Of a stretch of 11,111 nucleotides of DNA, positions 1 to 11,111 are shown piece by piece. The position numbers and the translations under genes were made by a program. Source of the DNA: Burkholderiales bacterium (GTDB lineage Bacteria; Pseudomonadota; Gammaproteobacteria; Burkholderiales; SG8-39); contig JAQSVY010000064.1 of NCBI GenBank assembly GCA_029266935.1, forward strand, positions 1 to 11,111, in the 5' to 3' direction. The notes below the pieces were generated by a model, which was given only the letters and a program-made list of their open reading frames with translations, was not told where the DNA came from and searched no databases. Positions within the stretch are counted from its first letter, which is position 1. Each line of letters opens with the position of its first letter.

Positions 1-999
1 CGAGATGTCCTCGAGCCCGGCGTCCTGCGGGATGCGGAACTCGCACTTCACGCCGGAGCGCCGGGCGAAGTCCTCGACCAGCCACTGCGCGGCGTCGGCA
101 AGTCCCAGGTCGTCGAGCATCAGCGGCCGCAGGTCGGCCGAGATGCGGCGCGTCGAGGTCACCGTCTTGTCGAGCAGCTCGCCCATCTCGTCGGCCTTGG
201 TGCCGAGCTCCTCGGGCAGGCGCTCGCGCAGCCAGCGCAAGTCCATCTTCAGCGCGGTGAGCAGCTGCCCCAGCTCGTCGTGCAGCTCGCGCGCGATGTG
301 CGTCTTCTCGTCCTCGCGCGCCTCCAGCACGCGCGCCGAGAGCTCGCGCAGCTCCTGCTGCTGGCGCTTCAGCTCGTCCTCGGCCTGCTTGCGGCGTGTG
401 ATGTCGCGCAGGATCACGGTGAAGTAGCGCCGTCCGTCCTCCATCGCCTGCGAGATCGACGCCTCGATGGGGAATTCCTCGTCGCTCTCATTTTTCCCGT
501 CCGCGCGCAGCGCCCACAGCGTGGTGACGTCGCCCATCTTGCGGCTGGTGACGCCCGTGTGGCCGAAGTGCTCGATGTGGCCGCGGTGCGCGCCGCGGAA
601 GCGCGCCGGCAGGAAGCGCTCGAGCGAGCTGCCGAGCACGTCGTCGCGGCGCACCCGGAAGACCTGCTCTGCGGCGCGGTTGAAGAGGACGATCTTCTGC
701 TCCTCGTCGACGGTGATGATGGCGTCCATCGCCGAGTCGACGATCGCCCCGAGCCGCGCCTGGCTCGCGTCGCTGCGCTCCTCGGCGAGCAGCGCCTGGC
801 GCGCGCCGCCCAGGATACCGGCGCCCACGAGCAGCATGTCGGCGACCAGCACGCCGCCGAGCAGCCACGGCGCGCGCTCGCCCAGCGCGAATGCGGCTAC
901 GTTCAGGGCGATGAGCGCCACCGCCGAGGCCGCGCCCACCGCCAGTACGACCGGGTGGCGCAGCGCGCCGCGCGTGGAGGCGAAGCTCCGCTCAGTCAT
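1..999 (-). CDS. PAS-domain membrane sensor histidine kinase, NarL/HisKA_3 family (3' part missing)
   Basis: Reading inward from ATG at 999-997, 333 codons are open to the left edge, so the C-terminus is outside the window. Residues about 17-39 and 46-64 are two hydrophobic segments with almost no periplasmic loop between them, so sensing is probably cytoplasmic or membrane-internal. Residues about 82-200 form a PAS domain (DSAMDAIITVDEEQKIVLFN; later FTVILRDITRRK). A coiled linker follows (about 203-228), then a HisKA_3 dimerisation domain with phosphoacceptor His240 in IARELHDELGQ. That motif is typical of kinases that pair with NarL/FixJ-type response regulators. The ATPase domain and any partner regulator must lie beyond position 1. 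It is divergent from hemN, 52 bp apart. No good Shine-Dalgarno sequence precedes the ATG, so the exact start is less sure than the gene. The signal sensed is unknown. Confidence 0.93.
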   Translation of the reverse strand, partial: MTERSFASTRGALRHPVVLAVGAASAVALIALNVAAFALGERAPWLLGGVLVADMLLVGAGILGGARQALLAEERSDASQARLGAIVDSAMDAIITVDEEQKIVLFNRAAEQVFRVRRDDVLGSSLERFLPARFRGAHRGHIEHFGHTGVTSRKMGDVTTLWALRADGKNESDEEFPIEASISQAMEDGRRYFTVILRDITRRKQAEDELKRQQQELRELSARVLEAREDEKTHIARELHDELGQLLTALKMDLRWLRERLPEELGTKADEMGELLDKTVTSTRRISADLRPLMLDDLGLADAAQWLVEDFARRSGVKCEFRIPQDAGLEDIS

Positions 1000-1003
1000 T
1001 CAT

Positions 1004-1017
1004 TTGATCGATGTCAA
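1004..1017. promoter_or_regulatory. FNR/Anr-type box upstream of hemN
   Basis: TTGAT-CGAT-GTCAA matches the FNR family consensus TTGAT-N4-ATCAA at all but one position. Its centre (1010.5) is 41.5 bp before the hemN ATG, and a TGn-type extended -10 (TGG CATAGT, hexamer 1039-1044) lies between. This is the classic class II activator spacing if transcription starts at or next to the ATG. hemN is a well known FNR/Anr target in proteobacteria. The box also sits 5 bp before the divergent kinase start codon, where binding could hinder kinase expression. The sequence match is seen; regulation is inferred. Confidence 0.75.
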
Positions 1018-1035
1018 GTGCCGCGCTGGGTGCGC

Positions 1036-1044
1036 TGGCATAGT
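1036..1044 (+). promoter_or_regulatory. Extended -10 element of the hemN promoter
   Basis: TGG followed by CATAGT. The predicted transcription start falls about 7 bases after the hexamer, at 1051-1052, which coincides with the hemN ATG. No -35 hexamer is evident, as expected for a class II FNR-dependent promoter. This is inferred from position and weak consensus only. Confidence 0.5.
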
Positions 1045-1051
1045 CGGTCGC

Positions 1052-2446
1052 ATGTCCTATCCCTCATCCGAGCTCGTGATCGATCCGGTGCTGATCCGCA
1101 AGCACGACGTGAGCGGGCCGCGCTATACGTCTTACCCGACCGCGGACCGCTTCGTCGAGGCGTTTGCCGAGCCGGAGCTGCGCCAGTGGCTCGGCAAGCG
1201 CAACATCGGCGGCATTAGCCAGCCGCTCTCGGCCTACGTCCATATCCCGTTCTGCAACACCATCTGCTACTACTGCGCCTGCAATAAGGTCATCACACGC
1301 GACCGCACGAAATCGGCCAAGTATATCAAGTACTTGCAGAAGGAGCTGGCGCTGGTGCGGCCGCTGCTCGGCGCCGATCGCAAGCTATGCCAGCTGCACT
1401 GGGGCGGCGGCACGCCCACCTTCCTGCAGCGCGAGGAAATGCGCGCGCTCATGGACGCGCTCGACGCCACCTTCCAGCGCTCCGCGGATGCCGAGGTGTC
1501 GCTGGAAGTCGACCCTCGCCGCGTCGAGGCGGGCACGATGGAGTTCCTCGCCGGGCTGGGCTTCAACCGCGTCTCGATCGGTGTGCAGGACTTCGACGCC
1601 GCCGTGCAGCAGGCGGTGCACCGCATCCAGAGCGAAGAGGTGACCCGCCGCGTGATCGAGGAGGCGCGCCGCAGCGGCTTCCGCTCGGTGAACCTCGACC
1701 TTATCTACGGCCTGCCGAAGCAGACGCTCGACAGCTTCAACCGCACCCTCGACAAGGTGCTCGGGCTCGAGCCCGACCGCATTGCCCTCTACAGCTACGC
1801 GCACCTGCCCAAGGCGTTCAAGCCGCAGCGGCGTATCGCCGAGGCCGACCTGCCTTCCGCCGAGGGGAAGCTGCAGATCATGACGCTCGCCATCGGCCGC
1901 CTCACGCGCGCCGGCTATCTGTACATCGGCATGGACCATTTCGCACGCCCCGGCGACGAGCTCGCCGTGGCGCAGAGCCAGGGGCGCCTGCAGCGCAACT
2001 TCCAGGGCTACTCGACCCGGCCCGAGAGCGACATGCTCGGCTTCGGCGTCTCGGCGATCGGCCGCATTGGCCCATGCTATTACCAGAACGCGAAGCGCCT
2101 CGACGACTACTACGCCGTGCTCGACGCCGGCCGCCTGCCGGTCGTGCGCGGTATCGAGCTCACGAGCGACGACCTGGTGCGGCGCGCGGTGATCCAGGCG
2201 CTTTCCTGCCACTTCCGCGTCTCGATCGAATCGATCGAGCTTGCCTACCTCATCGACTTTCGCAAGCACTTCGAGGCGGAGATGCAGGACCTGCGCCGCC
2301 TCGCGGTCGAGGGCCTGGTCGAGCTCGCCCCCGACTGGATCGTAGTCACGCCGAAGGGGCGCCTCCTGGTGCGCCGCATCTGCATGGTCTTCGACCGCTA
2401 CCTGCGCGAGCGCGAGGCGCGCGCGAGCTACTCCAAGGTCATCTGA
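1052..2446 (+). CDS. hemN: Oxygen-independent coproporphyrinogen III dehydrogenase (radical SAM)
   Basis: HemN decarboxylates coproporphyrinogen III to protoporphyrinogen IX without oxygen, in the cytoplasm, using S-adenosylmethionine and a [4Fe-4S] cluster. The 464-residue product has the usual HemN length. It shows the N-terminal GPRYTSYPTADRF signature (residues 22-34), the radical SAM motif CNTICYYCAC (Cys68, Cys72, Cys75, with the HemN-specific extra Cys77), the SAM-binding GGGTPTF (118-124) and a full C-terminal HemN domain. These separate it from HemW-like proteins. ATG at 1052 matches the family N-terminus; the frame stays open upstream to 467 only because it is antisense to the kinase. 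There is no Shine-Dalgarno sequence before the ATG, which together with the promoter spacing suggests a leaderless mRNA. The stop overlaps the next start (TGATG). An FNR-like box precedes it. Confidence 0.97.
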   Translation: MSYPSSELVIDPVLIRKHDVSGPRYTSYPTADRFVEAFAEPELRQWLGKRNIGGISQPLSAYVHIPFCNTICYYCACNKVITRDRTKSAKYIKYLQKELALVRPLLGADRKLCQLHWGGGTPTFLQREEMRALMDALDATFQRSADAEVSLEVDPRRVEAGTMEFLAGLGFNRVSIGVQDFDAAVQQAVHRIQSEEVTRRVIEEARRSGFRSVNLDLIYGLPKQTLDSFNRTLDKVLGLEPDRIALYSYAHLPKAFKPQRRIAEADLPSAEGKLQIMTLAIGRLTRAGYLYIGMDHFARPGDELAVAQSQGRLQRNFQGYSTRPESDMLGFGVSAIGRIGPCYYQNAKRLDDYYAVLDAGRLPVVRGIELTSDDLVRRAVIQALSCHFRVSIESIELAYLIDFRKHFEAEMQDLRRLAVEGLVELAPDWIVVTPKGRLLVRRICMVFDRYLREREARASYSKVI

Positions 2447-3069
2447 TGGAGCCCGCGCTCCTCGGCGGCATGTTCGCTCTGGGCATCGCCTCGGGCGTGC
2501 ACTGCGTCGGCATGTGCGGCGGCATCGTCACCGCCTTCAATGTCGTCGAAATTCGTAGCCGTTCTTCGTTGTTTCTCAGGCAACTGCTGTTCAATGCCGG
2601 GCGGATCTCGTCGTACGCGGTGGCGGGCGCGGCGGCCGGCACGGCCGGATTGCTCCTGTCGCTGCAGAACAGCCTCTACCTGTTTGCCAACATCGTGCTG
2701 ATCCTCGTAGGCCTGCACCTCGCCGGCTTCGGCGCGCTGCTGCGCCTGGAGCGCCTCGGCGGGCCGCTCTGGCGGCGGCTGCAGCCGCTCGCCGCGCGCG
2801 CCTCGGCGAAGGGCAATCCGTACTTCGCCGGACTGCTATGGGGATGGCTCCCATGCGGGCTGGTATATGCCGCGCTCGCCATCTCGGTTTCGGGTGGGAA
2901 CGCATTTTCTGGCAGCGCCGCGATGCTTGCCTTCGGCCTCGGCACGCTGCCCTGGCTGCTCGCCGCGGGCACCGCCGCGGCACAGCTGCGCCGCTGGATG
3001 AGCCTTCGTGCCGTGCGCCTTGCCGTGGGCGGCGGCGTCATCGCCTTCGGCGTGCACGGCTTGCTCTAG
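2446..3069 (+). CDS. Sulfite exporter TauE/SafE-like (DsbD_2 type) inner membrane protein
   Basis: A 207-residue, mostly hydrophobic protein with about six membrane segments. It carries the family's HCVGMCGG motif (residues 19-26) in the first helix, FNAGRISSYA (49-58) and WGWLPCGLVYAAL (132-144), the last resembling the Pro-Cys sites of DsbD/CcdA-type transmembrane domains. Members of this group (COG2836) are usually labelled sulfite exporters, but they recur next to cbb3 oxidase assembly genes and hemN, so a role in copper or thiol/redox handling for cytochrome assembly is as likely. No soluble N-terminal metal-binding domain is present. The start codon overlaps the hemN stop by one base, with AAGG at 2435-2438 as a ribosome site, so translation is probably coupled. 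The substrate is unknown. Confidence 0.88.
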   Translation: MEPALLGGMFALGIASGVHCVGMCGGIVTAFNVVEIRSRSSLFLRQLLFNAGRISSYAVAGAAAGTAGLLLSLQNSLYLFANIVLILVGLHLAGFGALLRLERLGGPLWRRLQPLAARASAKGNPYFAGLLWGWLPCGLVYAALAISVSGGNAFSGSAAMLAFGLGTLPWLLAAGTAAAQLRRWMSLRAVRLAVGGGVIAFGVHGLL

Positions 3070-3077
3070 GAGAGAAC

Positions 3078-3620
3078 ATGAGACCTGCCCTGACGATCAT
3101 CCGCGACGAGCACCGCACCATCTCGGCCGTGCTGCACGCGCTGAAGGACCTCGCTCGCGCGGCGCAGGAGCCCGGCGCCAGGCCCGCTTTCGCGGCGCTG
3201 CGCGCAATGGTGCGCTACATCGACGAGTTCCCGGAAAAGCTGCACCACCCGAAGGAGGACGACCTGCTGGCGCGACTCGTCGTGCGTGCCCCCGAGACCC
3301 GTGCGCTCGCCGACAGCCTGCGTCAGGAGCACGCGGAGGGCGCGCGCCTGGTGCGAGAGCTCGAGCGCGCGTTGTTGTTCTTCGAGGACAGCGCGAACGA
3401 AGGCGAATTCCTGGCCGCGGTGAACGCCTACGCCGAGTTCCACTGGCAGCACATGCGCAAGGAGGAGCAGGAGCTGCTGCCGCTCGCCGAGCGCATCCTC
3501 GGGCCGACGGACTGGCTCGCCCTCGACGCCGCCTTCGAGGCGAACCCGGACTTCGAGAAGCAGTTCACCCGGATCGTGAACCTCGCGCCCGAGCCGGTCG
3601 GCCTGGGCGCTCGGCCTTGA
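3078..3620 (+). CDS. Hemerythrin HHE-domain protein
   Basis: A 180-residue soluble four-helix protein. Candidate diiron ligands appear in order: His12 (RDEHRTI), His56/His57 and Glu60 (LHHPKEDD), His85 (QEHAEG), His122/His125 and Glu129/Glu130 (FHWQHMRKEEQELLPLAE). Family members bind a non-heme diiron centre and act in O2, NO or iron sensing or in repair of iron-sulfur centres after nitrosative or oxidative stress (YtfE/RIC-like); which applies here cannot be read from sequence. A strong ribosome site (AGGAGAG, 3068-3074) precedes ATG 3078, and only 8 bp separate it from the previous stop, so it is the third gene of the hemN operon. It converges on the J-domain gene; its stop codon lies in a short direct repeat. 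Confidence 0.93.
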   Translation: MRPALTIIRDEHRTISAVLHALKDLARAAQEPGARPAFAALRAMVRYIDEFPEKLHHPKEDDLLARLVVRAPETRALADSLRQEHAEGARLVRELERALLFFEDSANEGEFLAAVNAYAEFHWQHMRKEEQELLPLAERILGPTDWLALDAAFEANPDFEKQFTRIVNLAPEPVGLGARP

Positions 3621-3649
3621 AGTTGAGACTCACGTCCTGAAGTTGAGAC
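3618..3649. repeat. Two 12-bp direct repeats, 20 bp apart
   Basis: TGAAGTTGAGAC occurs at 3618-3629 and again at 3638-3649, offset exactly 20 bp. The first copy contains the hemerythrin stop codon and the second ends at the edge of the convergent J-domain gene stop, so the pair fills the whole intergenic gap. It is a direct repeat, not a hairpin, and no T-run follows, so it is not a normal terminator. Origin unknown; it could be a protein-binding repeat, a relic of a small duplication or part of a dispersed repeat. Confidence 0.7.
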
Positions 3650-4558
3650 CTATCCCCGGAAGCGGCTGCGCGGGTCGAAGCGCGAGGCTTCGCGCAGCTC
3701 CTCGAAGAGCTTCTTTTCCCGCTCGGTGAGCGTGGCTGGTACGACGATGTTGAGCACGGCGTAAAGGTCGCCCGCACCGCTACCCGGGCGGGGCAGGCCC
3801 TTGCCGGCGAGGCGCAGCTTCTGCCCGCCCTTCGAGCCCGGCGGCACCTTCATCGATACCCGGCCTTCGAGGGTGGGCACGTCCACCTGCGCGCCGAGCG
3901 CGGCTTCCCAGGGCGCGAGCGGCACCTCGATCTCCAGGTCGTGGCCGCTGGCGCGGTACAGCGGGTGCGGTTCGAGGGCGATCTGCAGGTAGAGGTCGCC
4001 CGCCTGGCCGCCGTTGGCCCCGGGGCCGCCCTTGCCGCGCAGCCGCAGTCGCTGCCCGTCGGTCGCGCCGCGCGGGATGCGCGCGCGCAGTTCGTGGCCG
4101 TTGAGCTGGAAGGCGCGCTCGGTGCCGCGAAACGCCTCTTCCAGGCCGATGCGCACCGTGATCTCGTAATCCTCGCCGGGGATGGGGATGTTGCGGCCGA
4201 AGCCGCCGCGGCGCCCGGCGGCGCGGCCGAAGATGCCCATCGACTCGAACAGATCCGAGAGGTCGACGTCGCGCAGGTCCTCGGCGCGCCCGGCGCCGAA
4301 GCGGTCGAACCAGTCGGGCGGCGGGCGGAAGTCCTGGCCGGGGCGGAAGCTGCCCAGGCTGTCATACGCGGCACGCTTTTCCTTGTCGCGCAGCGTCTCG
4401 TAAGCCTCGGCCACCTCCTGGAAGCGCTCCTTGGCGTTCGCCTCCTTGGAGACGTCGGGGTGGTACTTGCGCGCGAGCTTGCGGTAGGCCTTCTTGATCT
4501 CGTCTTCGCTGGCGCCGCGCGCGACCCCGAGAATCTTGTAGTAGTCCTTGTATTTCAC
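3650..4558 (-). CDS. cbpA: Class B J-domain co-chaperone, CbpA type
   Basis: A 302-residue DnaJ-family protein that would stimulate the ATPase of DnaK and deliver unfolded clients to it. The J domain (about 1-68) has HPD at 33-35 (ARKYHPDV). A Gly/Phe-rich linker with [12 protein letters not shown] follows (about 70-130), then two beta-barrel substrate-binding domains (about 135-285, with [16 protein letters not shown] and [12 protein letters not shown]). There is no CxxCxGxG zinc finger, which makes it CbpA-like rather than DnaJ proper. The start is GTG at 4558-4556, giving [12 protein letters not shown], the usual CbpA N-terminus; the frame is open further upstream only over the zinc-finger gene. 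The usual partner CbpM is not seen nearby. It is last in an operon after usp and the zinc-finger gene (25-bp gap), and its ribosome site is inside a hairpin. Confidence 0.95.
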
Positions 4559-4576
4559 CCCCTCAATATGAGGGTG
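4556..4576 (-). promoter_or_regulatory. Hairpin covering the ribosome site and start codon of cbpA
   Basis: On the minus strand CCCTCA-TAT-TGAGGG (4574-4560) is a perfect 6-bp inverted repeat around three bases. It extends outward: CAC at 4576-4574 can pair with the GTG start codon (4558-4556) if two G residues bulge. In RNA the GAGGGG ribosome site and the start codon would both be paired with an upstream CACCCUC, the arrangement of an RNA thermometer or other translational switch. It could instead be a DNA operator. Structure is seen; function is inferred. Confidence 0.5.
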
Positions 4577-4583
4577 ATCTTTC

Positions 4584-4787
4584 TCAACTGCAATTGGGGC
4601 AGCGGCGCGCCAGGGGGTCCGTCTGGAGTCGGCGGAAGGCAATGTCGGCGCCGCAGGCTTCGCACACGCCGTAGTCGGCGCTGTGCAGGCGCTCGAGCGC
4701 GGGGCCCAGCTCCGGGTCCATCAGGCTCGAGCGCATCTCGCGCTCGAGCGAAGCGCGCTGCTCCAGGGTGAAGTAGTGGTAGTGCAT
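4584..4787 (-). CDS. Short DksA/TraR-family C4 zinc finger protein
   Basis: A 67-residue protein with a C-terminal C4 zinc finger: CEAC at residues 42-45 and CPNC at 63-66, separated by 17 residues, in the context [16 protein letters not shown]...[10 protein letters not shown], which is characteristic of DksA/TraR. The long coiled-coil of full DksA (about 150 residues) is reduced to a short N-terminal helix, so it resembles TraR or the short DksA-like proteins. Such proteins bind in the RNA polymerase secondary channel and alter promoter choice. The acidic tip typical of DksA is not clear here. The ATG is 6 bp after the usp stop, with a GAGGAG ribosome site that overlaps that stop. Position between a stress protein and a chaperone suggests a stress-response role. 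Confidence 0.88.
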
Positions 4788-4793
4788 GGCTCC

Positions 4794-5240
4794 TCAGCGG
4801 ATGACGATGACGGGGATCTTCGAGTGGCCCAACACCCTCGTGGTCTCGCTACCGAGGATCAGGCCGCCCAGGCCGCCGCGGCCGTGCGAGGCCATCACGA
4901 TGGCGTCGCATTTCTGGCTGCGTGCGGCGCGCAGGATTCCCTTGAAGGGCTGCGAATCGGTGAGAAACAGGCTCTTGCAGCGCACCCCGGCGCCCCGGGC
5001 CTCGGCCTCGACCGCAGCCAGCGCCTTGCCGGCCTGCTTCTCCGTCATCCGGCGGTACTCCTGCGGCTCCACGGGCGGGACGTACATCGCCCCCTCGCCG
5101 TACATCGGCGGCACGTAGGGCGGGATTACGTACACGCCGCTCACCCGGGCACCGAGGGCTTTGGCGAGCCGCACGCCGGCCCGGGCGCCTTTCATGGCGA
5201 GGGCCGAGCCATCGATGGGAAGCAGGATGTGCTTGAACAT
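4794..5240 (-). CDS. Universal stress protein, UspA family, ATP-binding type
   Basis: A 148-residue single Usp domain beginning MFKHILLPIDGS, with the conserved Asp10. The C-terminal nucleotide loop is ASHGRGGLGGLILGSET (117-133). It matches the G-x2-G-x9-G-S/T ATP motif except that the first Gly is Ala117, so nucleotide binding is likely. The segment 38-60 (IPPYVPPMYGEGAMYVPPVEP) is an unusually proline- and tyrosine-rich insertion. The ribosome site AGGGAG (5253-5248) lies 7 bp before ATG 5240. It is first in the usp - zinc finger - cbpA operon and divergent from the ferritin-like gene, with an FNR-like palindrome in the shared promoter region. Usp proteins of this type are often induced by oxygen limitation or growth arrest; the biochemical role is undefined. 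Confidence 0.95.
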   Translation of the reverse strand: MFKHILLPIDGSALAMKGARAGVRLAKALGARVSGVYVIPPYVPPMYGEGAMYVPPVEPQEYRRMTEKQAGKALAAVEAEARGAGVRCKSLFLTDSQPFKGILRAARSQKCDAIVMASHGRGGLGGLILGSETTRVLGHSKIPVIVIR

Positions 5241-5259
5241 GAAGTTTCTCCCTGGGCTT

Positions 5260-5265
5260 AGGTTA
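5260..5265 (-). promoter_or_regulatory. Putative -10 element of the usp operon
   Basis: TAACCT on the minus strand (5265 to 5260). The predicted start, about 5252-5253, lies about 41 bp from the centre of the FNR-like palindrome and just at the ribosome site of usp. The consensus match is only moderate; the spacing is the main support. Confidence 0.4.
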
Positions 5266-5286
5266 GTGCGCGGGGGTGCGCGGGGC

Positions 5287-5300
5287 TTGAGCTAGGTCAA
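5287..5300. promoter_or_regulatory. FNR-like palindrome between divergent usp and ferritin-like genes
   Basis: TTGAG-CTAG-GTCAA keeps the TTGA-N6-TCAA core of FNR/Anr/Dnr sites but departs from TTGAT/ATCAA at the inner base of each half. The centre, 5293.5, lies 40.5 bp before the GTG of the plus-strand gene and about 41 bp from the predicted minus-strand start, so one dimer could act as a class II activator in both directions. Binding and regulation are inferred. Confidence 0.6.
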
Positions 5301-5321
5301 GAGTACCGCGCCGGGTGGTCG

Positions 5322-5327
5322 TACAGT
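5322..5327 (+). promoter_or_regulatory. Putative -10 element of the ferritin-like gene
   Basis: TACAGT, placed so that transcription would start 7 bases later at the GTG start codon (5334). No -35 hexamer is visible; the FNR-like site occupies that place. Confidence 0.45.
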
Positions 5328-5333
5328 CAAGGC

Positions 5334-5831
5334 GTGCAGCCGATCAAGTCCCCCAACGAGCTCTACGCCCACGCCATCGTCCTCGAGCGCGAGGCGGCGG
5401 AGTGCTACGCCGAGTTCGCCCGGCGCATGGACGACCAGGGCAACGCGGCGGCGGCCGAGGTCTTCACCACCCTGGCGCGGCTCGAGGAGGAGCACCTGCG
5501 GACGCTGCTCGAGCGCACGCAGGAAGTGGCAGTCCCTGAATTGCGGGACGAGCAATACGCCTGGCTCGACGCCGGGGCGCCCGAAACCACGGCGCGGGAG
5601 CTGGTGTTTCGCCTGCTCACCGCGCGCCAGGCGCTCGAGATCGCGCTGCGCGCCGAGAGCCGCGCGCAGACGTTCTTCGAGAAGGTAATGCTCACCGCCG
5701 ACGATCCGGCGCTGCGCGCGCTGGCGCGTGAGATGGCGGCCGAGGAGGGCGAGCACATCGCCCTCGTCGAGCAGCTGCTCCAGCGCACGCCACAGCCCGG
5801 CCTCGATTCCCAGGTGATCTTCGAGAGGTAA
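5334..5831 (+). CDS. Ferritin-like / rubrerythrin-type diiron protein
   Basis: A 165-residue all-helical protein with the double ExxH pattern of the rubrerythrin-like ferritin superfamily: Glu20/Glu23 (LEREAAECY), Glu51-x2-His54 (LEEEHL), Glu108 (RAESRAQTFFE) and Glu138-x2-His141 (EEGEHIALVEQLL). These are the likely ligands of a diiron site. There is no C-terminal rubredoxin domain (no CxxC), so it is not a full rubrerythrin. Expected roles are peroxide reduction, iron oxidation or iron storage in the cytoplasm. The start is GTG at 5334; no in-frame start upstream fits the promoter, and no usable Shine-Dalgarno sequence precedes it (AAGG ends one base away), which suggests a leaderless mRNA. 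The second usp gene begins 2 bp after its stop. Confidence 0.87.
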   Translation: MQPIKSPNELYAHAIVLEREAAECYAEFARRMDDQGNAAAAEVFTTLARLEEEHLRTLLERTQEVAVPELRDEQYAWLDAGAPETTARELVFRLLTARQALEIALRAESRAQTFFEKVMLTADDPALRALAREMAAEEGEHIALVEQLLQRTPQPGLDSQVIFER

Positions 5832-5833
5832 CC

Positions 5834-6277
5834 ATGTACAAGCACATCCTGATCCCCACGGACGGCTCGGCCGTCGCCGACAAAGCGGTCGAGGCGGGCA
5901 TCGAGTTCGCCCGCGAAGCGCAGGCGCAGGTGACCCTGTTCACCGCCGTGGCGGAATACGAGGTGCCGACGGCGGGCGAGCTGATGTCGCGCCGCGCCTC
6001 GTCGCTGAGCGCGCACGAGGAGCTTTCCAGGCGCAAGGCGGATGCGATCCTTGGGCCGGCGCAGTCGCGTGCGCGCGCCGCTGGCGTCGCCTGCGACACC
6101 GACTTCGTGCTGGACGACCGCCCCTACCACGCGATCATCGAGGCGGCGAAGCGCCACGGCTGCGACGCCATCTTCATGTCGACGCACGCCCGCCAAGGGC
6201 TCGCCAAGCTCTGGTACGGCAGCGAGACCGTCGAAGTGCTCGAGCACTCCGACATCCCGACGCTGGTGTACCGCTAG
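5834..6277 (+). CDS. Universal stress protein, UspA family, degenerate ATP loop
   Basis: A 147-residue single Usp domain starting MYKHILIPTDGS, with conserved Asp10. The C-terminal loop reads STHARQGLAKLWYGSET: the G-S pair of the ATP motif is kept, but the two earlier glycines are Thr/Ser and Ala, so ATP binding is doubtful compared with the other Usp in this window. The ribosome site GAGAGG lies across the end of the ferritin-like gene and the ATG is 2 bp after its stop, so the two form an operon and share the FNR-like promoter. Its TAG stop lies in a CTAG palindrome that also holds the stop of the convergent minus-strand operon. Confidence 0.95.
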   Translation: MYKHILIPTDGSAVADKAVEAGIEFAREAQAQVTLFTAVAEYEVPTAGELMSRRASSLSAHEELSRRKADAILGPAQSRARAAGVACDTDFVLDDRPYHAIIEAAKRHGCDAIFMSTHARQGLAKLWYGSETVEVLEHSDIPTLVYR

Positions 6278-6453
6278 CCGGAAAAAGAGCGCACCAGCCA
6301 GAAAGCCGCCAGCGCGAGCGGCAGGATGATGGCGAAGAACGCCACCTGGCGGTTCTCGAAGCGCGCGCCGCGCCGCCTCTCGATCCAGTCGAGCAGCCGG
6401 TCGGCGCCGAAGTACAGCCCGATTGCTACGAGCGTGAACCAGACGAGGTCCAT
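6274..6453 (-). CDS. Small two-helix membrane protein, last gene of the oxidase-like operon
   Basis: A 59-residue protein, MDLVWFTLVAIGLYFGADRLL..., with hydrophobic segments at about 3-18 and 38-54 joined by a basic loop (ERRRGARFENR, residues 25-35). By the positive-inside rule both ends would face the periplasm. The ATG lies 28 bp inside the end of the oxidase-like gene in another frame, with no clear ribosome site of its own, so it is probably translated by coupling. Small membrane subunits commonly accompany heme-copper oxidases and help assembly or stability; that role is inferred from position only. No family recognised. Confidence 0.75.
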   Translation of the reverse strand: MDLVWFTLVAIGLYFGADRLLDWIERRRGARFENRQVAFFAIILPLALAAFWLVRSFSG

Positions 6454-7763
6454 GCCGAGCGCCAGACGATGAGGATGAAGAGCAGGCCGCCGGCGACCGC
6501 GGCGAGGCCGCCCAGTCCCATGAGACCCATCGCGGCGACCTGCTCGAAGCCGCGCAGCACCTGCTCGGCGCCGGCCACCTTGCGCTGCACGCCGTAGCCG
6601 CCCGACCACATCAGCCCGAGCACGTGCGCGAGCTGCCCGGCGCCGTAGAGCCAGGGCTGCAGCGTCGCGAGCCGCGGGTCCGGGCGCGCAAGGCCCAGCC
6701 GCGGCAGCAGGTGATAGGCGAGACCCATGAACGCGAGCGTCACGCCGACGATACTGCCATGGTAGTGCGCGGGGACCTTGACGTTGTTGCCGCTGATGGC
6801 GATACCGATCAGCCCGCCCGCGGCGAACAGCACCAGCGACCACGCAAGCGCAACGCGCAACGGCCTCTGCTGTTCCGATGCGGGATTCGCAACGAGAAGG
6901 GCTGCGAGGACTGAAACCGCAAAAGGCACGATGGCGAGGCCGCCGCCGATGCGCATCAGCCAGGTCTGCAGCCGGTAGTGCTCGACCGAGACGATGTCGT
7001 AGGCGAGGTAGATCACCGGCGTGGCGAACACCGACACGGCCAGCCACAGCCAGGCGGCGAACATGAGCAGCGTCCAGGTGAATTGCAGCACGTGGCCGCC
7101 GCCCCAGAAGAGCACCTCGAAGTAAGCCTTGCCGTCCAATTGGGCGGGCAGCGCGATCCAGGACCAGGCGAAGGCGATGAGCGCCACCGCGGCGGAGACC
7201 GCCGCGGCGTTGAGCCCGAAGCGCAGCGCGCCAGCGCCGTCGGGGCGCGTGCCCACGCGTGGCGCCGCCGCCATCGCGCGCAATACCAGGGCAGCGCAGC
7301 CCGCGGCGAACAGAAGCAGCCCGGCGAGGAACACCGGGCCGTCGAGCACCGGCACGTAGTTGCTCATCACCGGCGGCGCCGCGTCGACGAACGGCGCGAC
7401 GCACATGACCAGCGTGCCAGCCGCGGCGGCGGCGAGCCCGGCCCAGCCGAGCGCGAGCAGGCGCCTCGTACCGTGCAGGCTCCAGAGCAGCCCGGCGAAA
7501 GCGCTGAACCACACCAGCACCGAAAAGTCGACGTGCACCACCAGCGCCACGCGGAAGAAGTCCGCCACCGGCAGCAGGTCCTTCACATACGGCGCGCGCG
7601 CGAGCACGAGCAGGATCGAGAACAGCCCCGAGCCCACCAGCGAGGCGACCGCGAGCGCGAGCCAGCCCACCGCCAGGCGGCGCCGCGCATCGGCCGGCAC
7701 CGCGAGCTCGTAGCTCGCTGGCGCGGCGGCGAGGCCTTCAGCGGAGAGCGAACGAGTATTCAT
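6426..7763 (-). CDS. Heme-copper oxidase subunit I-like membrane protein lacking the Cu_B His-His pair
   Basis: A 445-residue protein with about 11-12 membrane helices. Recognisable heme-copper superfamily positions are His77 (VVHVDFSVLVWF, low-spin heme ligand in helix II), His224 (FWGGGHVLQFTW, the first Cu_B-type ligand in helix VI) and His333/His335 (PAHYHGSIVG, high- and low-spin heme ligands in helix X). Between His224 and His333 the only histidine is His262, in a polar loop; the His-His pair expected in helix VII (about 272-292, IGGGLAIVPFAVSVLAALLV) is absent. No tyrosine follows His224 to form the His-Tyr crosslink of aa3 oxidases. It is therefore nearer NO-reductase/cbb3-like divergent members than a standard oxidase. 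Start ATG 7763 overlaps the upstream gene by 26 bp. No subunit II or cytochrome c gene is in the window; electrons probably come from the cytochrome b proteins upstream. Oxygen or NO reduction is possible but unproven. Confidence 0.85.
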   Translation of the reverse strand: MNTRSLSAEGLAAAPASYELAVPADARRRLAVGWLALAVASLVGSGLFSILLVLARAPYVKDLLPVADFFRVALVVHVDFSVLVWFSAFAGLLWSLHGTRRLLALGWAGLAAAAAGTLVMCVAPFVDAAPPVMSNYVPVLDGPVFLAGLLLFAAGCAALVLRAMAAAPRVGTRPDGAGALRFGLNAAAVSAAVALIAFAWSWIALPAQLDGKAYFEVLFWGGGHVLQFTWTLLMFAAWLWLAVSVFATPVIYLAYDIVSVEHYRLQTWLMRIGGGLAIVPFAVSVLAALLVANPASEQQRPLRVALAWSLVLFAAGGLIGIAISGNNVKVPAHYHGSIVGVTLAFMGLAYHLLPRLGLARPDPRLATLQPWLYGAGQLAHVLGLMWSGGYGVQRKVAGAEQVLRGFEQVAAMGLMGLGGLAAVAGGLLFILIVWRSAWTSSGSRS

Positions 7764-9003
7764 GTCCCGATCTCGAATATCGCACGTTGGGGCGAAGGCG
7801 CGGCATGCGCGCGCGGGCGAACCGTTCGTCCGCCAGGTCCATGCCGAGGCGGTAAGCGCATTCGGCGCAGCCGACTGCCCTGACTCGCCCGGCGCCATTG
7901 CGCAGCGCGTATTCGATGAAGGAAGGCGGCAGCATGGCGATACAGCGCACCGCCAGGCCTGGCCCTTTCGACGTTTCGCAGTGAAACACCAGCTCGCCCG
8001 CGGGCAACGCCGCCTTGACCCGCCGCTTCAGGCTGTCGACCGTCATATCCGGGAGATCGATGCCCGACGAGAGGTGCTGCACGCTGCGGAATGGCGTCGA
8101 CGAGGGGCAGGCGCCGGCGCAGATGCCGCACGCGGCGCAGCGCTCCGCGAACACCGATGCTTTTCCGTCCTTCACGATCACCGCTTCATAAGGGCAGTCT
8201 GCCACGCACCTGCCGCAGCCGTTGCAGTTGGCGGGGTCTACGATGGCGGGTAGGAGCTTTTCCTTCGGCGCGAGGTAGGGAACGGCGACGAGCACCAGGG
8301 TGATGCCGAGGAGCGCGGTCCACAGCACCGCCGGCGAAGTCGCGTACATGAGCGGATGAGCGAAGAGCAGGAACCAGTCGATCGCCACGCTGGTGGCGGC
8401 CTCGGCGGGCTCGGAGGCGACCGGCCAGACGAGCGCCAGCACCAGGAGCGAGCCCACCGTCATGGCGGCGAGCGCGCGCGGCGCGCCGGTGCGCGGCCGC
8501 CCGAGGCGCTGCACGTGGATCCACATGGCGGCGAGCAGCGCGAGCGGCAGCCCGATGTGCAGGAAGACGAAGAACGAGAACAGGCGGTCCGACACCTTCG
8601 CGCCGAGCGGCGCGAGCTGCACCGACTCGAGCGTGGCGAGGAACGAAAACTGCGCGCGCGCGTCCCAAACCAGCCAGTAGCCGACAATGCCAGAAGCGTA
8701 GAGCAGCCACACCAGCGGCACGCCCGAGATCCACGAGAAGGCGCGAAAGCCGCGGAACCGTCCCTGCCACAGCTCCTTGACCAGGTGGGCCATCGTGACG
8801 ACCACGAACGCGTCGGCGGCGTAGCGATGCAGGCTGCGCAGCACGCCGCCGAACCACCATTCCATCTCGCCGATGGACGCGTAGGCGCCGCCGACCGAGG
8901 TATCGAAGCGGATGTAGAGGTAAATGCCGCTCGCGGCGAGCGCCCAGAAGAGCACGAATCCCAGGCCGCCGAGGTGCGCCTTAAGTGCGGAAAACAAAGC
9001 CAC
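7738..9003 (-). CDS. Cytochrome b - 2x[4Fe-4S] ferredoxin - MvhD/FlpD-like fusion protein
   Basis: A 421-residue protein. Residues 1-245 form a cytochrome b6-type membrane domain with two His pairs, each 14 apart: His59/His73 (HRYAADAFVVVTMAH) and His149/His163, ligands for two b hemes on opposite sides. Residues 260-270 (CNGCGRCVADC) and 289-299 (CAACGICAGAC) are two classical [4Fe-4S] motifs. Residues about 338-405 resemble the MvhD/FlpD hydrogenase delta subunit: Cys342, Cys354, then PPSFIEYALRNGAGRVRAVGCAEC (360-382) and YRLG; MvhD normally has C-x4-C at the last pair, here C-x2-C. It probably links b hemes or quinone to a cytoplasmic iron-sulfur path. The start is GTG 9003, 23 bp inside the previous gene; TTG at 8997 is an alternative better spaced from GAGGGG. 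Its stop overlaps the oxidase-like gene by 26 bp. Partner unknown. Confidence 0.88.
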   Translation of the reverse strand: MALFSALKAHLGGLGFVLFWALAASGIYLYIRFDTSVGGAYASIGEMEWWFGGVLRSLHRYAADAFVVVTMAHLVKELWQGRFRGFRAFSWISGVPLVWLLYASGIVGYWLVWDARAQFSFLATLESVQLAPLGAKVSDRLFSFFVFLHIGLPLALLAAMWIHVQRLGRPRTGAPRALAAMTVGSLLVLALVWPVASEPAEAATSVAIDWFLLFAHPLMYATSPAVLWTALLGITLVLVAVPYLAPKEKLLPAIVDPANCNGCGRCVADCPYEAVIVKDGKASVFAERCAACGICAGACPSSTPFRSVQHLSSGIDLPDMTVDSLKRRVKAALPAGELVFHCETSKGPGLAVRCIAMLPPSFIEYALRNGAGRVRAVGCAECAYRLGMDLADERFARARMPRLRPNVRYSRSGHEYSFALR

Positions 9004-9484
9004 CCCTCGTCGCCACGAAATCGATGAGCAGCACGCCGCCGGGGGCGAGCTCCACCGTCTCTTCCTTCTCGTAGTTGAATTCCCCGCTCGCCCGGTCGGA
9101 GAGCCTCGCCACCACGCGATGCTTCCCGGCCGGCACCGGCAGGCGGTGGTACACCGTCGCGTTGCCGTCGTTCTTCAATCCCGAGGGCGGCACCTCGCGG
9201 CGCAGCACCAGCTTGCCGTCGACTTCGAGCTCGATCCTGACCGGGGCGCGCTCGCGCGGGCAATCCTGGGCGGCGCGCATGTTGGGCGAGAGCTTCGCCA
9301 GCTCCTCGGCGCTGCGCGTGCGGCAGGGCTCCTTGCGCTCGGCGGCATGGATGAACGACAGGCGCACCAGCGCCTCGTCCTCGTCGAGGATCGAGAAGCG
9401 CGGCTCGGTGGAGAAATAGCCGATCAGCGCCATCAGCGGCACGTAGAGCAGGAGCTGCGCGGCGATCCGCAGTATTGTCTTCAT
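8981..9484 (-). CDS. Membrane-anchored extracytoplasmic protein of unknown family
   Basis: I do not recognise this 167-residue protein. Residues 7-24 (IAAQLLLYVPLMALIGYF) form one N-terminal membrane anchor without a clear signal peptidase site. The rest is soluble and probably periplasmic. Residues 81-160 alternate polar and hydrophobic residues (PVRIELEVDGKLVLRREVPP, then PAGKHRVVARL and VELAPGGVLLIDFV), typical of an immunoglobulin-like beta sandwich. Cys54 and Cys75 could form a disulfide; no heme motif (CxxCH) or copper motif is present. The ATG overlaps the upstream stop as ATGA, with GGGGGA as ribosome site, and its end overlaps the next gene by 23 bp. Fixed position between two cytochrome b genes suggests an assembly or accessory subunit. 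Confidence 0.8.
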   Translation of the reverse strand: MKTILRIAAQLLLYVPLMALIGYFSTEPRFSILDEDEALVRLSFIHAAERKEPCRTRSAEELAKLSPNMRAAQDCPRERAPVRIELEVDGKLVLRREVPPSGLKNDGNATVYHRLPVPAGKHRVVARLSDRASGEFNYEKEETVELAPGGVLLIDFVATRGGFVFRT

Positions 9485-11111
9485 GTCGTTCCCCCAAGCT
9501 TCACCATCTGCGGCCTGGGTGCAAGCCGGAATACGTCCGAGAAGCAGTCATCGTGCGCGAGCCCGCGGGCGCTGAAGGCGGGGTAGGCGGCCTCGACCAT
9601 CGCCGCGGAGCCGCAGGCGTACACCTGGAAGGGTCCGAGGTCGGGAAAGTCGGCGAGGATGGCCTCGTGCACGAGCCCGGTGCGTCCCTGCCAGCGGTCC
9701 TCCGGCGCCGGCTCGGAGAGCACGGGCACGAACTTGAAGTTGTCGTGAGCATGCTGCCATTGCTCGGGAAGCTCGGCCAGGTAGAGGTCCTTCAGCCTCT
9801 TCGCACCCCAGTAGAGCAACATGCGCCGCTTCATGCCGCGGCTGAAGGCGTACTCGAGCATGCTCTTCACCGGCGCGAAGCCGGTCGAACCGGCGACGAA
9901 GATGATCGGCTTCTCCGAGTCCTCGCGCAGGAAGAAGGAGCCAAGCGGCCCCTCGAAGCGCACCCGGTCGCCGGAGCGCATGGCGCCGAACACCTGGCCG
10001 GTGAAGCGCCCGCCCTCGATGCGCCGGATGTGCAGCTCGACGCGGTCGCTCACCTGCGGCGCGGTGGCGAAGGAGAAGCTCCGCTTCGCGCCGTCCTCGA
10101 GGAGGATGTTGATGTACTGGCCGGCGTAAAAGGCGATCGGCTCCTTGCCCTCGAGCCTGAGCACCACGCGCATCACGTCGGGCGCGAGCCGGTCCATCGA
10201 CTCGACCGTCGCGCTCCAGATCCGCGCCGGGATGCCGCCGGGCGTGCGCGTCGGCTGGTATTCGATCTCCACGTCGCCGAGGGCGGTGGCGGTGCAGGTA
10301 AGCACCTTGCCCGCGGCGCGCTCGGCATCGGGAAGCGCGTCGCGCTGGTAGGCGCCGTAGTCCACCGCGCCGTAGGCGAGCGTCGCCTTGCACTTGCCGC
10401 AGCCGCCGTTCCTGCATTCGTAGGGCAGGGCGAGCCCCTCGCGCAGCCCCGCGTCGAGCAGCGTCTCGCCCGGGCGCATCGCGACGATGCGGTTGTCGGG
10501 CCGCGCCAGCATGAAGTGCCCGGCTTCCTTCTTCTTCGGCGGCAGCCAGGGCAGGACCACGAGCAGCGCGGTGGCCCCGGCGACCAGCAGCCAGACTTCG
10601 GCGGGAGTCCAGCGATACAGCAGCGCGTACACCGGCAGGTAGAACCAGTCGAAGTCGATCTCCGCCATGCCGCCGGCGAGATCGGCGCGCGCCTGCGAGA
10701 GCGCGGGCTTGGCGAGCGAGAGCACGACCAGCGCCACGGTGAGCGTCGCCGCGATCGGCAGCGGCGGCGCGGTGCGCGCCTGCGGCACGCGCTGGGTGTG
10801 CACCCAGAGCACCGCGAGCACTGCGAGCGGTACGCCGATGTGGACGAACGAGAGCAGCGAGAAGAGCCGGTCGTTGACGTTCTCGGTAAAGATGAAGTTG
10901 CGCACCAGCGTGCCGTTGAACAACGGCAGCCAGTCCAGCCACTCGGCGGTGGCGACGACGGTGAACTGCGCGAGGCGGTCCCACGGCAGCATGTAGCCGT
11001 TGATGCCGGAGACGTACACGAGCCAGAGCACCGCCATGCCGCTCACCCAGGAGAACCAGCGGAAGCCGCGGTAGCGGTCGAAGCTCCAGTGCCGCGCCAT
11101 GTGCAGGAGCA
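9481..11111 (-). CDS. Cytochrome b - [2Fe-2S] ferredoxin - FAD/NAD(P)H reductase fusion (5' part missing)
   Basis: Open at the right edge; residues are numbered here from the Met at 11100-11098, though reading enters with LLH just before it. Residues 1-185 are the end of a cytochrome b domain: the His just before Met1 matches His73 of the downstream paralogue, and His87/His101 form the second heme pair. Residues about 196-282 are a plant-type [2Fe-2S] ferredoxin with C229-x4-C234-x2-C237-x31-C269 (CRNGGCGKC). Residues about 290-392 bind FAD (RSFSFA at 340-345), and 398-525 bind NAD(P)H (GSTGFAPVKSM 404-414; YACGSAAMVE 494-503). Such reductase halves pass electrons from NAD(P)H through FAD to [2Fe-2S]; fusion to a membrane cytochrome b suggests delivery to b heme and on to quinone or the oxidase-like protein. 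It is the first visible gene of the five-gene operon; its promoter is beyond the window. Confidence 0.9.
   Translation of the reverse strand, partial: LLHMARHWSFDRYRGFRWFSWVSGMAVLWLVYVSGINGYMLPWDRLAQFTVVATAEWLDWLPLFNGTLVRNFIFTENVNDRLFSLLSFVHIGVPLAVLAVLWVHTQRVPQARTAPPLPIAATLTVALVVLSLAKPALSQARADLAGGMAEIDFDWFYLPVYALLYRWTPAEVWLLVAGATALLVVLPWLPPKKKEAGHFMLARPDNRIVAMRPGETLLDAGLREGLALPYECRNGGCGKCKATLAYGAVDYGAYQRDALPDAERAAGKVLTCTATALGDVEIEYQPTRTPGGIPARIWSATVESMDRLAPDVMRVVLRLEGKEPIAFYAGQYINILLEDGAKRSFSFATAPQVSDRVELHIRRIEGGRFTGQVFGAMRSGDRVRFEGPLGSFFLREDSEKPIIFVAGSTGFAPVKSMLEYAFSRGMKRRMLLYWGAKRLKDLYLAELPEQWQHAHDNFKFVPVLSEPAPEDRWQGRTGLVHEAILADFPDLGPFQVYACGSAAMVEAAYPAFSARGLAHDDCFSDVFRLAPRPQMVKLGGTT

Follow-up and report, generated by a model that had tools for sequence, protein, structure and literature searches.

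Which electron acceptor is served by a block of overlapping genes for membrane redox proteins is the question raised by contig C4 of a Burkholderiales metagenome-assembled genome (56.5% complete, 375 contigs), the entire 11,111 bp of which are here termed the window. Five open reading frames (ORFs) on its minus strand, g1 to g5, jointly span positions 6274-11109 and overlap, along g1-g2-g3-g4-g5, by exactly 4, 23, 26 and 28 bp, an arrangement described in an earlier reading made from the letters alone (the sequence-only reading) and confirmed by the ORF coordinates. That reading saw in them an NAD(P)H-to-oxidase-like complex with g4 as its terminal subunit and without a subunit II. The answer favoured here is that the products of g1-g5 rather probably make up an accessory module for electron transfer in the membrane, which is dedicated to the nitric oxide (NO) reductase eNOR and used in denitrification. 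As the module usually travels with eNOR in related bacteria, the five genes most likely serve denitrification, not a new oxygen-using oxidase. An eNOR-type subunit I is encoded in 59 of 61 related loci. The terminal acceptor is most likely NO and not O2.

Linkage of the five genes to eNOR

The named loci comprise the best 80 of 572 confirmed matches to a g4 profile, mostly of Betaproteobacteria or Burkholderiales by title, and linkage was counted over the whole locus, with self-set tblastn cut-offs, in the 61 with 8.5 kb or more of sequence upstream of g4. A heme-copper oxidase (HCO) subunit I is encoded in 59 of these, subunit II in 58, SCO in 59 and cyoE in 54; g3 occurs in 58, g2 in 60, g1 in 52 and g5 in nine, counts which include L099, where the cluster is reversed and lies on the other side. 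Typically, subunit II, HCO subunit I, cyoE and SCO are followed by g1-g2-g3-g4 (19 loci) or by g3-g2-g4 (38 more), with g1 in the latter layout placed after g4 or on the other side. The expectation that all five genes keep the same order across genomes holds in these 19 loci as far as g4, but the exact five-gene order recurs in only four. The complex without a subunit II does not agree with the loci of the relatives, and as the contig ends inside g1, which is open at this end and lacks approximately 100 N-terminal residues, with the operon start and upstream genes lying outside the contig, absence of subunit II is not established by the window.

Because the 61 loci were picked by g4, loci picked by the HCO were examined as well. 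In the four genomes of the class sample (274 genomes) that encode the HCO without g4 and have sequence behind it (G111, G167, G214 and G228), g3 and g2 are both found downstream of SCO, and in a fifth, G264, the contig stops behind the HCO. Wherever a class locus extends 7 kb or more beyond the HCO on its downstream side, both genes are present (ten of ten loci, six picked by g4 and four from genomes without it). Of the 65 named loci that reach equally far, all contain g2 and 63 contain g3, the two misses being L122 and L136, the latter retaining the cytochrome b part only. A Defluviimonas plasmid carries the order HCO-cyoE-SCO-g3-g2; a hypothetical protein takes the place of subunit II, and g4 is absent, its usual position after g2 being occupied by a hemerythrin (L138:14526-14930). 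On a Thermus plasmid the HCO, 45.5% identical, lies 4.5 kb from a nitrite reductase gene. Neighbours resembling nirS, nirJ, nirN/nirF, nosR, NnrS and DNR were identified by visual inspection of ORF starts, and further nirS copies were detected by tblastn with one neighbouring nirS-like sequence. No NorB is listed in the pHG1 stretch.

The partner HCO subunit I belongs to the B family by its kin in the PDB, with a ba3-type cytochrome c oxidase as its best PDB sequence match. The 120 homologues listed, out of 8000 scored, share the motif W-x-x-GHSSQQ, in which the Tyr position, at CuB His+4, is occupied by a Gln. Across nine aligned sequences the three His of the CuB site (H231, H280 and H281) are invariant. 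Replacement of the cross-linked helix VI Tyr by Gln defines eNOR in PMC8756737, the table of which gives Asn at this position for sNOR and CuANOR and Asp for gNOR. Since it carries the diagnostic Gln, the partner subunit I is identified by this residue as eNOR, and would reduce NO in these organisms; the source records name it 'cytochrome c oxidase'. Like the eNOR of PMC8756737, subunit I of the relatives combines the Gln with the CuB His triad and has a cytochrome-oxidase-like subunit II adjoining it. The COX2 match of subunit II lies just below the Pfam cut-off in one relative, and of the 61 local alignments, which are possibly truncated, 41 show a C-x2-Y-C-x3-H-x2-M motif. The sNOR locus of ammonia oxidisers (norSY-senC-orf1) shares the order of a B-family subunit I, a subunit II and SenC/SCO, but is set apart by the Asn listed for it in the table of PMC8756737, a comparison made with the listed residue.

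Co-occurrence across genomes follows the linkage. In the order sample (300 genomes) g4 is encoded in 24, the window's own included, and a strong eNOR match in 22, with both in 22 (Fisher p 2e-31); G416 encodes g4 without eNOR. The cytochrome d1 family PF02239, which also includes heme-d1 biosynthesis proteins, is found in 78 genomes of this sample, namely in 21 of the 22 with eNOR (G371 being the exception) versus 57 of the 278 others (Fisher p about 1e-12). The g4 profile matches 32 of the 274 genomes of the class sample at E<=1e-10, of which two (G167 and G264) match only the HCO, leaving 30 with g4; eNOR is encoded in 23 and both in 18 (Fisher p 3e-16). As genomes share ancestry, these p-values overstate independence. 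Linkage and co-occurrence together uphold the view that these membrane electron carriers are encoded as a conserved unit tied to NO metabolism.

That no standard complex has this composition is a fair statement for g1-g5, but eNOR itself is already known. It is described in the available portions of PMC8756737 as a two-subunit enzyme, with no mention there of a module like g1-g5; the window itself contains no eNOR. A description of the module together with eNOR was not found in the literature searched, which did not include the principal publication on eNOR (Murali et al. 2024), where the cluster may already be shown.

Redox proteins of the module

The domain make-up read earlier for g1 (cytochrome b, 2Fe-2S, FAD and NAD), g3 (cytochrome b, two 4Fe-4S and FlpD/MvhD) and g4 (COX1) is matched by the Pfam assignments (Table 1). 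Chance ORFs are ruled out by conservation in relatives and by the GC content at third codon positions, which is 0.87-0.94 in the five frames.

Table 1. The five minus-strand genes of the window and the basis of their annotation.
Gene	Product	Position	Strand	Basis
g1	Cytochrome b (two-heme), plant-type 2Fe-2S, FAD and NAD(P)-binding domains	9481..11109	-	Pfam; 5' end cut by contig end
g2	One N-terminal membrane helix and a beta-sandwich, presumably periplasmic	8981..9484	-	No Pfam family above cut-off
g3	Cytochrome b (two-heme), two 4Fe-4S and FlpD/MvhD-type domains	7738..9003	-	Pfam
g4	12-helix heme-copper-oxidase-like protein	6426..7763	-	Pfam COX1, E=1.7e-13
g5	59-aa protein, putative membrane peptide	6274..6453	-	No Pfam family above cut-off

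In g3, 85-86 of the 86 aligned rows (L062 counted twice) keep the four heme His, eight ferredoxin Cys, four Cys of the FlpD domain and, in a DW[F/Y] motif, the D and the W, and the window copy retains all of them. The g1 protein, which is 636-645 aa long in those full-length relatives inspected, matches the families PF13631, PF00111, PF00970 and PF00175, and its PDB kin include benzoate dioxygenase reductase and NqrF. Its alignment (64 rows, L062 again counted twice) shows conservation, in 62-64 of 63-64 rows, of the heme His, of the four Cys of the 2Fe-2S domain and of both D and W in DW[F/Y]; the four heme b His stand in 63-64 of 63-64, the first two falling outside the truncated copy of the window. 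PEWY is the quinol-site motif of cytochrome bc1, and the DW[F/Y] of g1 and g3, placed by eye where bc1 has PEWY, appears quinol-site-like. Both proteins resemble cytochrome bc1/b6f in this motif, in the four heme His and in an N-terminal domain of cytochrome b type, but differ by their fusion to cytoplasmic redox domains, and neither a Rieske protein nor a cytochrome c1/f is present among the cluster proteins scanned with Pfam. The 'novel quinol reductase' of Accumulibacter is reportedly built from a cytochrome b/b6 joined to NAD(P)/flavin domains, which would be the architecture of g1; it is not known to be linked to eNOR. A third type of fusion, of 846 aa and with cytochrome b, flavodoxin, FAD and NAD domains, is encoded downstream of an eNOR/g3/g2/g4 cluster at L039:2675-5212.

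In g2, a helix followed by a beta-sandwich, C54 and C75 are invariant and His46 is near-invariant. Fold searches return sandwich domains of unrelated proteins, and neither a cupredoxin nor a Rieske fold is among the matches listed, which leaves both identities admissible. In L046 (1-1578) and L048 (5887-7935) g2 is joined to the C-terminus of g3, adjoining CtaA and g4. Homologues of g5 adjoin g4 or eNOR, on either strand, in some relatives. Small g5-like proteins (44-46% identical, weak scores) also occur near eNOR even without g4 in L165, L166, L167, L168 and L169.

The g4 protein has the subunit I fold, with a ba3-type cytochrome c oxidase as the top Foldseek match and aa3-type chains placed first by VIA-align, within 2-3 Z. 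As a single sequence it finds no match in the PDB, and a plasmid search with it gave none. The heme-ligand positions (H77, H333 and H335) and the first CuB-ligand position (H224) are kept, and the low-spin and high-spin heme His are conserved in 94, 95 and 95 of 95 rows, a set that omits L047, L058, L064, L065, L079, L103 and L128 (a stop codon, or fewer than 381 residues in the aligned piece). By contrast with the ba3-type oxidase, the Tyr position four residues after the His of helix VI is occupied by Phe in 93 of the 95 rows, the window included, and by Tyr in two, and the helix-VII His pair that would supply the second and third CuB ligands is present in none, with a single His in that stretch in three. 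Because of the loss of this Tyr and of the His pair, g4 is probably not a terminal oxidase, contrary to the terminal role first assigned to it. It represents an unusual protein of the heme-copper fold, with the CuB site seemingly lost and the heme ligands kept. H285, conserved in 83 of 95 rows, lies after a predicted helix where the alignment is ambiguous; it would be a tentative CuB ligand at most, two alignments disagreeing on its place. The window copy lacks 22 residues near the start of helix VII (at approximately 7037/7038) which are present in all 14 close relatives compared, and the gap reflects either misassembly or a genuine deletion. Diverged g4 relatives in L050, L051, L052 and L043, with no eNOR in the fetched stretch, lie beside aa3-oxidase-, cyoE- or SCO-like genes.

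Proposed function and competing explanations

In the mechanism proposed, the catalytic part, a CuA-type subunit II and a B-family subunit I with Gln for Tyr, would be encoded upstream of the five genes or elsewhere in the genome, outside the window. The g3 and g2 proteins would form the core of the module, with g1 and g4 as frequent parts. The two-heme cytochrome b of g3 would link a quinone site near the periplasm with the cytoplasmic Fe-S clusters and the FlpD domain, g2 would be located on the periplasmic face, and g1, a paralogous cytochrome b, would be wired to NAD(P)H via its 2Fe-2S and FAD domains. As a heme-copper-like paralogue without the CuB/Tyr site, g4 would most likely relay electrons between the cytochromes b and the eNOR subunits via its two heme positions. 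Electron input from quinol and/or NAD(P)H toward NO is the direction we infer and favour, and the net reaction would be the reduction of NO to nitrous oxide (N2O) by quinol and/or NAD(P)H. N2O, the product of NO reductases, is a strong greenhouse gas. The conserved g3-g2 module beside proteobacterial eNOR, often with g1 and g4, provides a concrete and testable answer to the question of the electron source of eNOR in these bacteria. If correct, this answer would couple NO reduction directly to both the quinone pool and cytoplasmic reductant. The g1-g5 genes could also aid the recognition of denitrifiers of the eNOR type in metagenomes.

Several findings weigh against a module dedicated to eNOR. 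In the class sample g4 is absent from five of the 23 eNOR genomes, so that it appears dispensable, and 12 genomes encode g4 without eNOR (11 besides the window's own), some of these g4 genes lying beside aa3-oxidase-like and cyoE/SCO-like genes. Likewise, g1 is dispensable to eNOR clusters, in L122 SCO and g2 have no g3 between them, and none of g1-g4 was found in the fetched eNOR stretch of the Thermus plasmid. Neither the window nor its 57%-complete bin was found to contain eNOR. In L058, apparently genome G584 of the window's genus, g1-g5 stand alone amid flanking genes of the window type, and eNOR (87% identical to the query) is on another contig, beside nirS, CtaA, cyoE and SCO. Physical contact between the module and the eNOR proteins is also presumed. 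Scattering of the genes in relatives, which the sequence-only reading held to count against a single complex, does occur in part, in the shifting place of g1 and the class genomes with eNOR and no g4.

The layouts closest to that of the window are L057, L058 and L059. In L059 the cluster is complete and contiguous, and its downstream neighbours are very similar to those of the window. Among cultured bacteria, the records of Comamonas granuli NBRC 101663 and Ramlibacter cellulosilyticus USB13 contain the cluster together with g1. The g1 fusion occurs in two of the 11 genomes of the window's genus, its own and G584. Of seven genomes whose locus had no strong eNOR, six encode it (G576 in two pieces at contig edges), and none was found in the genome of L074. 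Genomes in which eNOR is present include those of L057, L058, L060, L065 and L091. As six of the seven genomes, that of L058 among them, possess the enzyme, eNOR is likely present in the organism of the window, although its adjacency to g1 is not certain. The bin contains one PF02239 match.

An unlikely but serious rival assigns the module to assembly: it would feed electrons to the copper or heme maturation (CtaA/CyoE/SCO) of eNOR, with g4 as a heme-holding scaffold and not a carrier in respiration. Its weight comes from g4 relatives elsewhere in the class, which likewise adjoin genes resembling those for aa3 oxidase, cyoE and SCO; in addition, g4 and g3 are found near cyoE, SCO and CtaA, and a contig of L048 has the order g3-CtaA-g4 approximately 13 kb from its eNOR gene. 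For such a task, however, a pair of cytochrome b modules bearing NAD(P)H and FlpD domains would be elaborate, and the Thermus eNOR stretch does without the module.

Quinol bifurcation is an improbable explanation, in which quinol at the DW site would give one electron to the NO branch, of high potential, and one via bL/bH, the Fe-S clusters and flavin to NAD(P)+ or ferredoxin, so that NO reduction drives reverse transfer. The cytochromes b with four heme His and DW[F/Y], joined to cytoplasmic 2Fe-2S/FAD/NAD and 4Fe-4S/FlpD domains, would suit such a role, as would the Accumulibacter quinol reductase, which, as suggested in PMC4930944, may re-oxidise the quinones reduced by succinate dehydrogenase. 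However, no Rieske protein was seen in the cluster, and g2, with no Rieske family match, corresponds to one only in its layout of a helix anchor and a beta domain. Quite improbable, too, is the wider claim of a new energy converter, which would bifurcate through the paired cytochrome b-Fe-S/flavin proteins, with g4 as a relay without CuB and g2 as a non-Rieske periplasmic carrier, and exploit the very high potential of NO reduction to drive electrons uphill to NAD(P)+/ferredoxin in denitrification. Finally, the earlier view that g4 itself is the divergent terminal enzyme, an oxidase or NO reductase supplied by g1 and g3, is very improbable. The subunit I fold, the conserved heme His, the frequent H285 and the two rows with Tyr would speak for it; against it stand the residues lost and the true eNOR that, leaving aside the window's own genome, 22 of the 23 order-sample genomes with g4 also encode.

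Surroundings of the window

FNR-box-like sites with at most two mismatches are found at 1004-1017 (one mismatch), 4574-4587 (two) and 5287-5300 (two), in or near intergenic gaps. As pointers to low oxygen or NO, as proposed earlier, they are weak, with three observed versus 0.84 expected, at least three in 11 of 200 shuffles and none at the operon. The flank at 1-6277 encodes, by Pfam, a PAS histidine kinase, a HemN-like radical SAM protein, a DsbD_2-type membrane protein, a hemerythrin, a DnaJ protein, a DksA-like zinc finger protein, two Usp proteins and a rubrerythrin-like protein, and a similar set was recognised by eye around g1-g5 in L058 and, in part, in L059.

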